NCBI GenBank assembly: GCA_012728565.1
Contig: JAAYEV010000159.1
Span: 1-48,048 of the forward strand
Source of the DNA: Clostridiales bacterium
GTDB lineage: Bacteria > Bacillota > Clostridia > Ch29
Length of the DNA stretch: 48,048 nt
Direction: 5' to 3'
The position numbers were made by a program, and so were the translations under genes. The stretch's first letter is position 1. Each line of letters opens with the position of its first letter. The notes beneath the pieces were generated by a model that saw nothing but the letters and a program-made list of their open reading frames with translations, was not told the DNA's origin and made no database searches. Below, piece after piece: positions 39,334-48,048 of this stretch.

Positions 39334-40510
39334 TCATACAATCTTCTTCCTGCCGTTTATTGTAATCACCGTATTGCTGTATAAGCGCACCGCGTATATT
39401 TTGCCGTCTTTGTCAAGAACTCTGCAGTGTGTAGCAATACCGTTGGAAGAACCCACAATCCCCATGCTTATTCTTTTTCCTGCTACCAGCGTTCCGCCCA
39501 GGGCAACGCTTGAAGGATTCATAAACTTTATAGCATTTTTTGCAATAATATAGGTCTGGTATGTGCCGCGGCCCAAAACCAGTACCTCGTCGGTGGCTTG
39601 TACAATCGAGTTCTGGGCATATTTAAACCTAACGACCGCGCCCTGGTTTTCGATACATACTCTTTTGGCCAAGTAGCCCTGTATCCTATCCTTAAGCCTG
39701 TTTACCTGTTCGGCACTTGCCGAGTTGCCGGCGGCATAAATAACACGCACCCTCTCCAGCATATCCTTAATCACAGCGTAATCATCATCTGCCAAAAACC
39801 TGGCCAAGGCCTTTATATTTTGAGCGATTTTGTCCACGCTTTTTATTCTTTCTGAATATAAACCGGTGCCGCGCCCGGCCGTCAACGGGATATATCCCTT
39901 CGGCAACCACTGCACAGCCCCCGTCCGGCTGCTCCAACAGCTTTTTTATCGCGTCCTTGTCAATAAATTTAGGCGCTACCTTTATCCTCTCCAGCTCCCG
40001 GATACACCGCTCCATCGTGGCATCCGGCGCCGGTATCTCTTTGCATCCCGAAAGCACTTTCAGCAGGCCGGTTTTTGGCGCATCTTCCACGTAATACTGT
40101 TTGCCCGGCATTTTTGTCACCGTTAAGACGGCCTTCATTTTATCCTCTGTCAGTTCCGCCTTAACCTCAGTAGAAGCTTCCTTGACCGCGGGCCTGAACT
40201 CTACAATGTCTCTTTGTGTAACAATGCTTACGCTGTTTATTTTGCTGCCGTTAAGATACACTTCCACGTTGGTATCAGCCGGGTCTATGGCGGCATAATG
40301 CCCCTCTTCCACCGGGTCAGCCACCACTGCTTTGCCCGAAACTATTTCTATGTAGCCGTCTTTGCAGTCTTCCCTTTCCTTGCCTTGACATGCATCATTT
40401 CGTTTTACACGGGCAGGATCCACATGGGTTTCCAGCTCTCCGGCGTTACACCGGTAATTTTTAGTTCCCTTTTTAATGGCACCTCTTAATAATACCTCGT
40501 GAATTATCAC
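39334..40510 (-). pseudogene. Frameshifted FapA/DUF342-like gene
   Basis: Two overlapping minus-strand frames read as parts of one protein. The first (GTG 40510 after agaggtg, to 39785) has the FapA N-terminal pattern: DGYIEIVSGKAVVADPVEEGHYAAIDP, YLNGSKINS, then VVAEGIYPVDGR. The second (to 39334) has coiled-coil sequence SERIKSVDKIAQNIKALARFL and a C-terminal beta-helix-like part, ALGGTLVAGKRISMGIVGSSNG. Reading changes by one base near 39871-39885, in a run of C and G (gcgcccggcc on plus). The central beta-helix of ordinary FapA seems missing, so an internal deletion is possible too. FapA proteins are polar or membrane-associated regulators of flagella and related envelope systems; a c-di-GMP riboswitch lies upstream. 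A sequencing error cannot be excluded. Confidence 0.75.
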
Positions 40511-41097: not shown

Positions 41098-41610
41098 TCA
41101 GTTATTTTGGTTTTTTATTACCTTCACCCTTACCAACACTTCCGCAACCGGTAATGCCAGGGCCGCGCTGCCCAGCGCCTGGAACAAATTGCCCGGCAGT
41201 TCCACCAGGGCCGCCGGAAGGCCGTATAGGAAAATCTCCACCGTGAAATATCCCGCCGCCATCCACAGGCCGCCCAGTGCCATTGCCGCTATCCTTGAAA
41301 CAGTGCTGCCCTTGGCCGAAGCCAGTCGGTATAATACGTATCCCACTATGAATCCTTCCAGGCCTTTTATCACAAGGGTAAAGGGCGCCCACGCGGCATA
41401 GGGGGACAATAAATCGGCCAGCGCCGACCCTACTCCGCCCGCAATTGCTCCGTACCTTGGTCCAAGCAGCAGTGCCGCCAAAAATATCACCGTATCGCCG
41501 AGGTTTATATATCCCTTCGTTGCCGGTACAGGCACCTGGAAGGCTATGGTAGCCACCGTCACAAGCGCCGTTAGGAGCGCCGCCAAAACCAATTTTTGGG
41601 TTTTATTCAT
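41098..41610 (-). CDS. ECF transporter S component, riboflavin-type family
   Basis: ECF S components capture vitamins in the membrane and couple to a shared energizing module. The 170-residue, six-helix protein contains the conserved stretch GYINLGDTVIFLAALLLGP and ALADLLSPYAAWAPFTLVIKGLEGF, which looks like the ECF-ribofla_trS family (PF07155). Members of that family do not all transport riboflavin, so substrate is uncertain. ATG 41610 follows ggaggga; the frame's upstream ATG is less well placed. No ATPase or T component lies in the window. I saw no FMN riboswitch ahead of it; a weak promoter (TTTAAA, 17 nt, TATAAT) is near 41650-41680. Confidence 0.85.
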   Translation of the reverse strand: MNKTQKLVLAALLTALVTVATIAFQVPVPATKGYINLGDTVIFLAALLLGPRYGAIAGGVGSALADLLSPYAAWAPFTLVIKGLEGFIVGYVLYRLASAKGSTVSRIAAMALGGLWMAAGYFTVEIFLYGLPAALVELPGNLFQALGSAALALPVAEVLVRVKVIKNQNN

Positions 41611-41670
41611 CAAAGGTCCCTCCAAAGGTTTTATACTGTGGGTTTTATTATACCACGCGCCCTGGGACTT

Positions 41671-43788: not shown

Positions 43789-44256
43789 TTAATCCTCAAT
43801 AATTCGGTAGCAGTGGTCGCAGTGGTCGCTGTTCTGCATCAGCGTATTATGCCTCTTGAACCTAATCCGCGGATTAAACACGTCCACCACCGGGTACTCG
43901 TACATGCAGCAGTATTTGTACCCGAGGTCCTGGGCACCCAGCTTTTTGTATTCGTTGGCGTAAAAACAACCCTTAACCCTGAGCCTCAGCTCCCCTTTAT
44001 CCTTCACTTCAACCTCGCTGTCTATTATCCCGTCCTTTTTCTTCCACACCATGCTGTACAGGTCCTCAAGGCCTGCATCGCCCTTGTCCTTAAGGCTCCA
44101 TTTCCGATGGGCTCCTTCGGTAAGAACCTCCGCTATCTCGTCCGCTACCTGGGGACCGTATTTCTGCTGCAGCTTCCTGGTTATATCCACCAGCCTTTTT
44201 ATTTCGCTTCTCTTTAGTTTTTTATAAAGCTCCAGTAATTCCTTTTCATATTCCAT
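43789..44256 (-). CDS. L-2-amino-thiazoline-4-carboxylate hydrolase-like protein
   Basis: The family (PF14196) is named for an enzyme of the L-cysteine-forming pathway, but most members have unproven roles. The 155-residue protein has a coiled N-terminus, VKGCFYANEYKKLGAQDLGYKYCCMYEYPVVDVFNPRIRF-type core with three Cys, and ends with a CDHC pair. The C-terminal Cys cluster looks like a metal or redox site. GTG 44265 sits in the Shine-Dalgarno; ATG 44256 is preferred. The assignment is from memory of the pattern. Confidence 0.6.
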   Translation of the reverse strand: MEYEKELLELYKKLKRSEIKRLVDITRKLQQKYGPQVADEIAEVLTEGAHRKWSLKDKGDAGLEDLYSMVWKKKDGIIDSEVEVKDKGELRLRVKGCFYANEYKKLGAQDLGYKYCCMYEYPVVDVFNPRIRFKRHNTLMQNSDHCDHCYRIIED

Positions 44257-44330
44257 GAAAAGCACCCCCGGCCAATATAATATTAAACTTTTTTAGCAAG
44301 CCATCAAATTTAGTCATATTCGCCTAAAAA

Positions 44331-44401: not shown

Positions 44402-45370
44402 CTATTTTGTTCTTGCTGCAGTGAACAATAGCAGGTCTTGCAGTGCATCGGTATAGGTATTGGGCACAAGGTTACGTATAGCTTTTTTTGCCTTGTCATG
44501 GTACCTCTGCTGCAGCAGTGCCGCCCGTTCCACCGCCCCGCTTCTTTTTACCAGTTCAACTATCTCTTTCAGCCTGTACTCCGACTTTTTTTCGTCCGAC
44601 AGCATATTCCTTAGCCGTTCGCCGGTATTCTTGTCCTTCAGCGCATAAATTACCGGCAGTGTATATACCCCTTGGCGCACATCGTTTGTAACCGGTTTGC
44701 CCAATTCCTCCTCGCTGGACTTGAAGTCCAAAAGGTCGTCCATTATCTGGAATGCCATGCCGAGGTTCATCCCGTACATCACCAGCGCCCTTTTTTGCCA
44801 TTCGGGTATTGTTGACTGGCTTGCCCCAAGGTAGCAGCTCATGGCAAACAGCATGGCGGTTTTATACCTTATCCTGGTAAGGTATTTTTTAATGCTGATG
44901 TTTAAGTTGTTCCGGGTAAAATACTGTTCTATTTCGCCTTCGCATATCAGTTTAAAGGTTTTGGCCATCATGGATGCATCGCTGAACTCGGTATACTGTG
45001 TGAGCATTTGGAAAGCCTTGCTCAGCATGTAATCGCCTGCAAATATGGCGGTATGATTGTCCCATTTCCTATGGGTGGTCTCAATTCCCCTCCTGTAGTC
45101 GGCATCATCAATCACGTCATCGTGTACCAACGTGGCCATATGAACCATCTCCACTGCGGCGGCCAGCGGCACAAGCCTTTTTTGGTCAACCCCGCCGTAG
45201 CCGCCGCAAAGAAGCACCAGCGCCGGTCGTAGGCGCTTGCCTCCAGCGTTGACCAGGCGGAACAATATGGACTCGATGGTGGCATTGCGCGAGCGCGCTT
45301 CCTGCCGCAGCCTGCTCTCCACCATTTCAAGCCCCCTATATAAATCGGGATACTTTTCCCAGGAATTCAC
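44402..45370 (-). CDS. Polyprenyl diphosphate synthase (heptaprenyl synthase component II-like)
   Basis: This trans-prenyltransferase makes the side chain of (demethyl)menaquinone from FPP or GGPP and IPP. The first Asp-rich motif is LVHDDVIDDADYRRG near residue 82, the second IMDDLLDF near 211, with GGKRLRPALVLL at the N-terminus and KTAMLFAMSC mid-chain. GTG 45370 follows gggtgat and is a better start than GTG 45379. It is 22 nt downstream of a Gx-family gene, its frequent partner. Confidence 0.92.
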   Translation of the reverse strand: MNSWEKYPDLYRGLEMVESRLRQEARSRNATIESILFRLVNAGGKRLRPALVLLCGGYGGVDQKRLVPLAAAVEMVHMATLVHDDVIDDADYRRGIETTHRKWDNHTAIFAGDYMLSKAFQMLTQYTEFSDASMMAKTFKLICEGEIEQYFTRNNLNISIKKYLTRIRYKTAMLFAMSCYLGASQSTIPEWQKRALVMYGMNLGMAFQIMDDLLDFKSSEEELGKPVTNDVRQGVYTLPVIYALKDKNTGERLRNMLSDEKKSEYRLKEIVELVKRSGAVERAALLQQRYHDKAKKAIRNLVPNTYTDALQDLLLFTAARTK

Positions 45371-45392
45371 ATGTATCACCCACTTGAATAGT

Positions 45393-45896
45393 CTAGTTGG
45401 AACCTCTACCCATAAGTGCCATTACGTACTTTACCGTAAACCCTATGAATATTCCTGTTATCACCGCCGACACCATCAGTATAGGCAGGTAAATGTAAAG
45501 ACCGAAGTTTTCCACTATAAGCCCGGCAACAAATAATTGTCCCACGTTATGGGCCACCGCCCCGGCAACGCTTATACCCACCACGCTGAATTTGGATCCG
45601 GCCCATCTGTACAAGGCATACATAACCACCGTGCTTAGCATTCCCCCGGCGGAGCTGAAAAGAAAGTTTGACGGCACCCCGCCCAGCATCGACCCAAGGA
45701 ATGTCCTTATCAGCACAACCACCAGGGCCTCTTTAAACCCGAACAGGATAATTGCCACCAGCGACACTATGTTTGCAAGGCCAAGCTTTACCCCCGGAGC
45801 GATGTACGGGATGGGCAGAAGGCTTTCCACCACGTGCAGCACCAGCGCCATCGACACCATCATGGCCAATACGGCCAGTTTTCTTGTTTTCTTCAT
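45393..45896 (-). CDS. Gx transporter family membrane protein (heptaprenyl synthase component I-like)
   Basis: The 167-residue protein has five or six helices and the family text SLLPIPYIAPGVKLGLANIVSLVAI and LIRTFLGSMLGGVPSNFLFS (PF07456). Members were named as component I of heptaprenyl synthase, yet the fold is that of a small transporter. EetB of Listeria, part of flavin-based electron transfer, belongs to this family, as I recall. Its ATG overlaps the ApbE stop by four bases (ATGA), so co-translation is likely. Confidence 0.88.
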   Translation of the reverse strand: MKKTRKLAVLAMMVSMALVLHVVESLLPIPYIAPGVKLGLANIVSLVAIILFGFKEALVVVLIRTFLGSMLGGVPSNFLFSSAGGMLSTVVMYALYRWAGSKFSVVGISVAGAVAHNVGQLFVAGLIVENFGLYIYLPILMVSAVITGIFIGFTVKYVMALMGRGSN

Positions 45897-46954
45897 TCGG
45901 CCCCCACCCATCTTACCTTATAGTCCGGCTTGGAAAGGCTGAACCAATCATTGATGCCGGAGGACAGCACCACCTGCCTGTCATCGGTAACAACAATTGC
46001 CTCAACGCCTTCCAGGTTCTCAACAAGGTCCATTCCCTTTTCAACCCCCAAAAGAAACACCGTAGTGGACAGGGCATCGGCATCAAAGGATGAGGATGTG
46101 ACGATGGTAACTCCCCTTACTTCGCCGATTCCGGGATAACCCGTAAAGGGGTTCAGTATATGGTGGTGCCGCTTCCCGTCCTTTTCGAAGTATCTCTCGT
46201 AATCCCCGGAAGTGACAATCGTAGCATCGGTTATCCGTACAATACCCAGAATGCCCTTGGCAGGCGCCTCCGGGTCCTTTATCCCGATATTCCACGGCTT
46301 GCCGTCGTACCTTGCCCCTATGGTGAGCACGTTGCCGCCGAGGTTTATTATGGCATGCTTTATTCCTTCCCCGACCAGCGCCTCCTTGACCTCGTCGGCT
46401 GCATAGCCCTTGGCGATGCCGCCGAGGTCAAGGCCCATGCCGTGCCTTTTCAGGTATACTTCCCCTTTTTCTTCGTTTACCTCAACGTCCCTGTAGTCTG
46501 TAAGCTCCAGCGCATTTTTCAGCTCCTGCTCCCCCGGTACTTTCGGGTTTTCGGTTCCTATACCCCACAGCTCCACCAAGGGCCCCACCGTGATATCAAA
46601 AAGGCCTTCGGAAAGCCTGCCGTAGTACAGCCCCTTCTCCACCACCTTTTGGGTGTCGGCGCTTACCTTAACCGGCCTCTCCCCGGCGTTTTGGTTTAGT
46701 AAGTTCACTTCGCTGTCCTTTTGGTTTGCGCTCATCAGGCCTTCTATTTCCCTTATCCGGGCAAGGGCTTTTTCCGCCGCGCTGTCCGCTTTGTTAATAT
46801 CCCTATCGTATACTTTTATGTTGACCAGGGTTCCCATGAGAAACTCCGACTTCTCCACCTTCTTCAGTCCTCCGGTGATTTTGTCGGCCCGGCACCCGGT
46901 CACGGAAAATAAAAGGCATATGGAAACAGCCAAACCGATAGTTTTGCTTTTCAT
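45893..46954 (-). CDS. apbE: FAD:protein FMN transferase (ApbE), lipoprotein
   Basis: ApbE attaches FMN to Thr of exported flavoproteins using FAD. The 353-residue protein has a lipoprotein signal (VSICLLFSVTGC), LMGTLVNIKVY, DITVGPLVELWGIG, DLGGIAKGYAADEVKEAL, INLGGNVLTIG, HHHILNPFTGYP and SSSFDADALSTTVFLLG, all complete for FAD and Mg binding. It is therefore anchored outside. ATG follows gggagat. Its target flavoprotein is not in the window. Confidence 0.94.
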   Translation of the reverse strand: MKSKTIGLAVSICLLFSVTGCRADKITGGLKKVEKSEFLMGTLVNIKVYDRDINKADSAAEKALARIREIEGLMSANQKDSEVNLLNQNAGERPVKVSADTQKVVEKGLYYGRLSEGLFDITVGPLVELWGIGTENPKVPGEQELKNALELTDYRDVEVNEEKGEVYLKRHGMGLDLGGIAKGYAADEVKEALVGEGIKHAIINLGGNVLTIGARYDGKPWNIGIKDPEAPAKGILGIVRITDATIVTSGDYERYFEKDGKRHHHILNPFTGYPGIGEVRGVTIVTSSSFDADALSTTVFLLGVEKGMDLVENLEGVEAIVVTDDRQVVLSSGINDWFSLSKPDYKVRWVGAE

Positions 46955-47016
46955 ATTTATCTCCCATTTATAAGCGCTGTCTTATTATATTATAAACAAT
47001 ACCATGCGCTAATACC

Positions 47017-48048
47017 CTACAAGGCCCCGGTTGCGCCGTAACTTTTCAGCATCTTTTTCATGCCGTCGGTTGCCTCCACCCTTCCGTCCTGTAAGACCCA
47101 AACCGCTTCCACCCCGTCAAGCCCTTCCACAAATTCCCGTCCCTCTTGATAGGGCATCAGGAATACCGCGGTGGAAAGCAAATCCGCCATTCCCGAGTCT
47201 TCGGTTACCACTGTAACCGCCTTGCTGTGCTCTCCCGGCATCAGCGTATCCGGGTCAATAAGATGGTGGTACATTTTTTCGCCCACAAAATAATACCTCT
47301 GGTATACGCCGCTGCTTACCACCGACGTATCCTTCACAAAAAGGGTATCCATTATGTTGCTTCCGTCGTCGGAAACAATGAATTTGTCGGGGTCCTGGAT
47401 GCCTATGCCCCAAAGCCCGCGAATGCCGTCCAGGGGCTTCCCAATGATACGCATATTGCCCCCGGCGTTTATTATGGCCGAACTAAGGCCCTGCTCAACA
47501 GCTTCCCTGGCTGCAATCTCCGCCGCAAAGCCCTTTGCCACCGCACCCACGTCAAGGGACATGGCTTTATCCGCAAGAAATATCGTTCCCTCTTCTTGGT
47601 CCACAATCACCTTGTTTATATCGGTATGCCGGGCGGCCTCCTTAAGCTTTTCCATCGGGGGAACCTTTGCCCTTTCCGGGTGGTCCAGGCCCTCCTGGCG
47701 GTATTCATGCCAAATCTTGAGTACCGCTCCCATGGCAATATTTACCTTACCACCGGTACGCTCATACCATTCCTTGGCAAAGACCACAAGGTCTATTATC
47801 TCCTTGTCCACCTTGACCGGCTTTATGCCGGCGTTATCGTTAATGGTCTTTATATTGTTTATACCCTCGTAATCGTTGTATATATCATAAAGCCTGTGAA
47901 GTTCCTCGAACCTATTTTTTATTCTTTCGTAATGGGATTCAAACTCCTGCTCGCTCTTTGTGTAGGCTGTAACGTTAATAAGCGTGTTAAAACAGTCAAA
48001 GAAGCCGTCGGAATATTTGCTGTATTCGCTCTCATATCCCCTTTGGCA
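47017..48048 (-). CDS. Second ApbE-family flavin transferase, 5' end outside window
   Basis: The frame is open to the window edge, so at least 343 residues are encoded. An internal GTG at 47811 is not the start, since upstream text fits the family (GFFDCFNTLINVTAYTKSE, NRFEELHRLYDIYNDYEG, IKTINDNAG). Core motifs are NIAMGAVLKIWHEYR, DVGAVAKGFAAEIAAREA, INAGGNMRIIG, HHLIDPDTLMPG and DLLSTAVFLMPY. The usual H-x-(I/L)-(D/N)-P-x-T-G lacks its Gly at the expected place. The first visible codon is Cys, perhaps the lipobox Cys. It is divergent in sequence from the neighbouring ApbE, so not a recent duplicate. Confidence 0.9.
   Translation of the reverse strand, partial: CQRGYESEYSKYSDGFFDCFNTLINVTAYTKSEQEFESHYERIKNRFEELHRLYDIYNDYEGINNIKTINDNAGIKPVKVDKEIIDLVVFAKEWYERTGGKVNIAMGAVLKIWHEYRQEGLDHPERAKVPPMEKLKEAARHTDINKVIVDQEEGTIFLADKAMSLDVGAVAKGFAAEIAAREAVEQGLSSAIINAGGNMRIIGKPLDGIRGLWGIGIQDPDKFIVSDDGSNIMDTLFVKDTSVVSSGVYQRYYFVGEKMYHHLIDPDTLMPGEHSKAVTVVTEDSGMADLLSTAVFLMPYQEGREFVEGLDGVEAVWVLQDGRVEATDGMKKMLKSYGATGAL

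Follow-up and report, generated by a model that had tools for sequence, protein, structure and literature searches.

The occurrence of two ApbE flavin transferases beside a Gx/EetB-type protein and a polyprenyl synthase raises the question which protein these enzymes would load with flavin, and to which electron path that protein would belong. Such a cluster occupies positions 44402-48048, on the minus strand, of a 48,048-nucleotide stretch of a Clostridiales bacterium (GenBank assembly GCA_012728565.1, contig JAAYEV010000159.1), which in its whole length is called the window here and represents the entire contig C2. An earlier note on the window had likened the cluster to the flavin-based extracellular electron transfer (FLEET; extracellular electron transfer, EET) locus of Listeria, and all four genes have been confirmed, running in one direction and closely packed. 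As the same gene order has been found again in other genera of the family, the arrangement is not due to chance. We consider it probable that these genes belong to a FLEET/EET-type locus in which electrons would pass through a lipoprotein of a separate family, termed c4, that is encoded directly upstream of the first ApbE gene. The flavin-based reading has gained support in that the partners predicted by it are present in the genome.

The contig end and the joined locus

Within the window, the operon begins with ApbE1 (47017..48048, minus strand; PF02424, 2.1e-66), a lipoprotein-type flavin adenine dinucleotide (FAD):protein flavin mononucleotide (FMN) transferase of the c4-associated clade, whose 5' end is cut by the contig end. 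It is followed by ApbE2 (45893..46954, minus; PF02424, 1.3e-94), a lipoprotein FAD:protein FMN transferase with a lipobox that belongs to the general clade, and a genome-wide search has yielded these two as the only ApbE genes. The third gene encodes a Gx/EetB-type ECF-S-like protein (45393..45911, minus; PF07456, 7.3e-50), the predicted FAD-export subunit, in line with the role of EetB in FAD export (PMC9973259). The last encodes a DmkB-like long-chain polyprenyl diphosphate synthase (44402..45379, minus; PF00348, 2.2e-72), the predicted maker of the quinone side chain, with TIGR02748 (heptaprenyl diphosphate synthase component II) as its best NCBIfam match at 3e-90, below the cut-off.

Since the window stops where the contig stops, inside ApbE1, the partner genes were invisible to the earlier reader. 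When the genes that stand upstream of the operon in the relatives G005 and G004 were searched for in this genome, a second contig, C175, was located, the right end of which, read in reverse complement, matches the final 141 bases of the window (47908-48048) at every position. The two contigs thus appear to be neighbours in one assembly graph, with the locus split by an assembly break. C175 supplies the 5' end of ApbE1, which encodes a signal peptide with an FFLAGC lipobox, and the joined order reads FixC, FixX, Ndh2, c4, ApbE1, ApbE2, Gx, polyprenyl synthase. The c4 lipoprotein (370 residues; L084:8065-9174, on C175) stands directly upstream of ApbE1, in the position of PplA. Ahead of it lies a divergent Ndh2-type NADH dehydrogenase (C175:5913-7649; 578 residues), an 86% relative of which has Pyr_redox_2 with a C-terminal DoxD/DoxX domain, and this gene is adjoined by FixC- and FixX-like genes for an electron-transfer flavoprotein (ETF)-quinone oxidoreductase (L084:4282-5880, on C175), possibly a second electron input. 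We call the locus FLEET-type because C175 supplies Ndh2, FixCX and c4, and because MenA/DmkA-like and NusG-II/EetA-like genes lie elsewhere in the genome. The expectation that the missing partners would be found beyond the window has held: Ndh2 and a lipoprotein in the PplA position adjoin the operon, and the other two are present in the genome outside the locus. The DmkA candidate is the single UbiA-family gene of the genome, on C217, closest to MenA models and below the equivalog cut-offs, and NusG-II (EetA-like) is represented by a single copy, next to maf and mreBCD on C245.

In G004 and G005 the order is unbroken from Ndh2 through to the synthase, G005 also carrying FixCX, and the sister genome G002 has a contig break at the same place, where the start of one contig still encodes the last residues of c4. 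In two further genomes (G001 and G003), the corresponding chromosomal site holds ApbE2-Gx but lacks Ndh2, c4 and ApbE1, on account of which ApbE2-Gx may be taken as a general or Rnf-serving unit to which Ndh2-c4-ApbE1 looks to have been added as a module. Apart from its ApbE2-Gx locus, G003 has a second one (L038/L086) in which Ndh2 is accompanied by a canonical FMN_bind lipoprotein, Gx and a polyprenyl synthase. The ndh2-c4 gap holds a pair of AT-rich palindromes (L084:7680-7722, on C175), spaced by about 23 bp and conserved in three genera. Fur boxes had been suspected in this gap and have been discarded, as shuffled sequence yields matches to the Fur consensus at least as good as the best one in this genome.

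The c4 family and its terminal motif

Members of the c4 family have been found in 41 of 391 genomes of the class and in about a tenth of a phylum sample (43 of 398 genomes, including the present genome and one other already seen, two of the 43 matches being remote). The protein consists of a lipobox region and two repeats of ~155 residues, or of a single repeat in some genomes; the lipobox cysteine is invariant in the c4 alignment (A3), which marks c4 as exported and lipid-anchored. An ApbE1-clade gene directly follows c4 in 37 of the 38 class loci where this could be tested (G093 is the exception, and three further loci cut by contig ends have been left out), in 16 of 18 strong-scoring loci of the phylum sample, and likewise in Acetoanaerobium noterae. 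Ndh2 is part of the c4 locus in 22 of the 41 class genomes, and several of these carry the full set of Ndh2, DmkB, DmkA, EetA, EetB, c4 and ApbE1, with c4 replacing PplA. One genome (G425; L174:7735-11357) has a tandem pair of c4 genes ahead of a single ApbE1, and the A. noterae variant locus (L158) is carried by a 2.63 Mb record, NZ_CP154629.1, that is labelled plasmid pTPELB2 and is of chromosome-like size.

The trait that bears on flavin attachment is the motif [DE]-[LI]-x-[S/A/T]-x-V-[T/S], which has been observed near the end of 65 of 67 complete c4 domains in the class set, the two exceptions (D-L-K-T-S-S-T) both belonging to G346, and in 40/40 domains of the phylum set; glycine occupies its fourth place in 2 of 105 domains. 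Compared with the published ApbE acceptor motif D-x-x-[S/T]-G-A-[S/T] (PMC12052999), the acid, the Ser/Thr and the acceptor are equally spaced, whereas x-V stands where the published motif has G-A. When a signal-free profile of 52 diverse c4 domains was run against 177,635 PDB sequences, the sole significant match was 2kzx (E 3.5e-5), in which D-A-I-S-G-A-T falls exactly on the c4 motif, with every residue in register. 2kzx is also matched by the canonical PplA-like lipoprotein encoded on C156, which has two FMN_bind domains (NCBIfam PplA model 7e-44, below the cut-off) and in addition matches 3o6u, a protein reported to be flavinylated (PMC11334425). A candidate for the PplA partner which the earlier note did not have in view is thus this C156 protein, while the main carrier is best seen not as a Pfam-recognisable PplA but as the divergent c4. 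On the best reading of its sequence and setting, c4 would be the equivalent of PplA, a doubly flavinylated lipoprotein with a variant motif and a dedicated ApbE.

Several observations weigh against this assignment and against the locus built around it. The c4 domains do not have the canonical motif, and G-to-A and A-to-V changes in that motif are reviewed as cutting flavinylation to about 50% (PMC12052999). No c4 member passes any relevant Pfam FMN_bind or NCBIfam (including PplA) model, and the domain-only profile-profile comparison of c4 with FMN_bind by hhalign, with the signal peptide removed, is not significant. AlphaFold models of c4, made from two or four input sequences only, are poor, with predicted local distance difference test (pLDDT) values of 32 and 41. 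The EetA and DmkA genes lie outside the locus, and the genome search has returned no MenB above cut-off and no MqnA/MqnD-family gene. Regarding the last two points, EetA is dispensable for EET in Listeria (PMC9973259), and the lack of a MenB above cut-off and of an MqnA-family gene, which makes de novo naphthoquinone synthesis doubtful, suggests that the head group may come from outside the cell, a use reported for Lactiplantibacillus plantarum (PMC10746273).

These points leave room for a c4 that carries no flavin, a structural or ligand-binding lipoprotein that would accompany ApbE1 for some other reason, as might be argued from the missing Pfam FMN_bind match, the missing G-A pair and the poor models. 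We consider such a protein unlikely, since its motif would then be invariant in exact register with canonical sites, its match to 2kzx would be significant and its gene would hold the PplA position of FLEET loci without cause. Because the 2kzx match is significant while the domain-only profile-profile comparison is negative and the models are poor, homology of c4 to FMN_bind is regarded as likely, not proven. Some apparent matches have been set aside: a profile-profile match of 91.5% between c4 and PplA-like proteins is inflated by the lipoprotein signal peptide, falls to 0.5-2% without it and is not taken as evidence; fold-search matches to MHC and IscU rest on the poor models; and weak Pfam matches to DDE_Tnp_2 and RE_NgoFVII, near or below cut-off in odd segments of few members, have been treated as chance. 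A single c4 searched against PDB by phmmer has given no significant match.

Two side observations concern variation at known or predicted flavin sites. At L182:11101-11871, not far from a c4-ApbE1 pair, a PplA-like FMN_bind protein reads T-K-A-T in one of its sites and T-G-A-T in the second, so that the canonical glycine is seen to vary in nature. In three c4 genes (L084:8065-9174, L036:5567-6670, L037:5504-6622), the motif-bearing C-terminal halves of the repeats share 91-99% DNA identity within a gene and 79-83% between genera, whereas the pattern is inverted in the N-terminal halves (56-64% within a gene, 71-79% between orthologues). This opposite behaviour of the two halves suggests repeated gene conversion of the half that would hold the flavin site.

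Two ApbE clades and their proposed substrates

The pairing with c4 is mirrored in the ApbE tree, where a branch with a support of 100 separates all 37 enzymes encoded next to c4 from all ApbE2-type enzymes, three enzymes that do not adjoin c4 also being placed on the c4 side. Both types keep Ser, His and Asp spaced as in the FmnB triad (PMC8906456), which in the ApbE1 fragment are S246/H262/D289, and clade-specific changes adjoin the FAD and catalytic motifs (D-V-G-A vs D-L-G-G, T-L-M-P vs T-G-Y-P).

One might suppose that both enzymes and Gx merely serve Rnf and ordinary FMN_bind proteins, the adjacent lipoprotein being unrelated. The Rnf operon of this genome, on C5, has no ApbE beside it on that contig, eetB is often colocalised with Rnf in Clostridia (PMC9973259), and ApbE2-Gx stands without Ndh2 and c4 in G001 and G003, all of which would fit. 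Yet it would be left unexplained why ApbE1 goes almost strictly with c4 in many families and why Ndh2, DmkA and DmkB are present in the same operons, and in G034 the Rnf operon includes an ApbE2-type enzyme (L059), with a separate ApbE1 accompanying c4 at another locus (L049), so that we judge this explanation to be very unlikely. The earlier note had suggested that an Rnf operon could account for both ApbE enzymes; the one found probably uses ApbE2 and accounts for that enzyme only.

For the preferred FLEET-type locus, ApbE1 would attach FMN to the terminal Thr/Ser of [DE]-[LI]-x-S-x-V-[T/S], with one flavin site per ~155-residue domain and two per c4 here. ApbE2 probably also serves Rnf and canonical FMN_bind proteins, and would modify those with D-x-x-S/T-G-A-T, namely RnfG, the C156 PplA-like protein and a second canonical FMN_bind protein encoded on C209. 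We lean somewhat towards a second flavinylation code in clostridial EET, in which lipoproteins with [DE]-[LI]-x-S-x-V-[T/S] and a co-inherited, dedicated ApbE clade would operate in parallel to the S-G-A-T code, which a different ApbE of that cell would serve.

Proposed electron path and relation to known systems

In the proposed path, NADH via Ndh2, and possibly ETF via FixCX, would reduce a membrane naphthoquinone whose tail would come from the polyprenyl synthase and which would be assembled by the MenA/DmkA-like enzyme encoded elsewhere. The quinol would then reduce covalent FMN on lipid-anchored c4 outside the membrane, and from there electrons would reach extracellular acceptors, with Gx (EetB) and the ECF module supplying FAD outside. 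A carrier alone does not fix the acceptor, and the acceptor is not readable from sequence; flavinylated carriers are known to feed extracytosolic reductases (PMC8238504), and many c4-ApbE1 pairs lie outside Ndh2 loci. It is thus possible, although we rather doubt it, that a flavinylated c4 feeds such a reductase for a specific organic acceptor instead of metals or electrodes: no dedicated reductase gene has been recognised in the present locus, the neighbours in relatives having been scanned only with profiles of known partners and not systematically for reductases.

Of the neighbouring genes, an ATC_hydrolase-family protein (43789..44265, minus; PF14196, 1e-16) lies downstream of the operon in an order conserved in family genomes. 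The earlier note had placed a riboflavin-type ECF S component nearby, and an ECF S component gene does lie there (41098..41625, minus; PF07155, 4.3e-45, passing the Pfam ECF-ribofla_trS cut-off); its riboflavin specificity is not demonstrable, since all NCBIfam scores are below cut-off (closest TIGR04002), and its substrate is uncertain. Two overlapping open reading frames at 39334-40510 resemble the N-terminal portion and the beta-solenoid of FapA and probably represent a frameshifted FapA-family gene. GPR and SpoIIP, both encoded in the window, support the suggestion of a spore former.

As c4 has neither the canonical motif nor Pfam or NCBIfam matches, surveys that detect EET through FMN_bind, PplA or the S-G-A-T signature would overlook c4 systems. 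Two ApbE clades beside two substrate types make ApbE specificity directly testable, a second motif could yield an additional, possibly orthogonal flavin tag, and the cultured A. noterae, which carries the variant locus, is usable for physiology.

In the literature searched, neither the c4 carrier family nor its association with an ApbE clade of its own has been found. c4 may overlap the FMN-bind2 double-domain proteins (mSystems 2024, PMC11334425), which likewise have ~160-residue domains, often in even number, with two predicted flavin sites, and were found by BLAST and not by a Pfam model; the portions of that paper considered here, to whose description alone c4 has been compared, describe neither a motif variant nor a partner ApbE clade. 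The clostridial combination of Rnf, ApbE and EetB is matched in that Rnf and ApbE2-Gx both occur in this genome, but Rnf lies on another contig and leaves Ndh2, c4 and ApbE1 unexplained. The Caldicoprobacter EET locus (L044) comprises the same functional set (Ndh2, FMN_bind lipoprotein, ApbE2-type enzyme, NusG-II, Gx, polyprenyl synthase) and differs in that its lipoprotein is a canonical FMN_bind one with D-T-Y-T-G-A-T and its ApbE belongs to the ApbE2 clade, neither c4 nor ApbE1 being present. With the Listeria-type FLEET/EET system, the present locus shares Ndh2, EetB, DmkB, ApbE/FmnB and a multi-site lipoprotein in one place, and DmkA-like, EetA-like and ECF-T genes (two of the latter) within the genome. 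It departs from that system in that these three are unlinked to the locus, Ndh2 is divergent from the rest, FixCX adjoins, two ApbE genes are present, and the c4 family stands in place of PplA.

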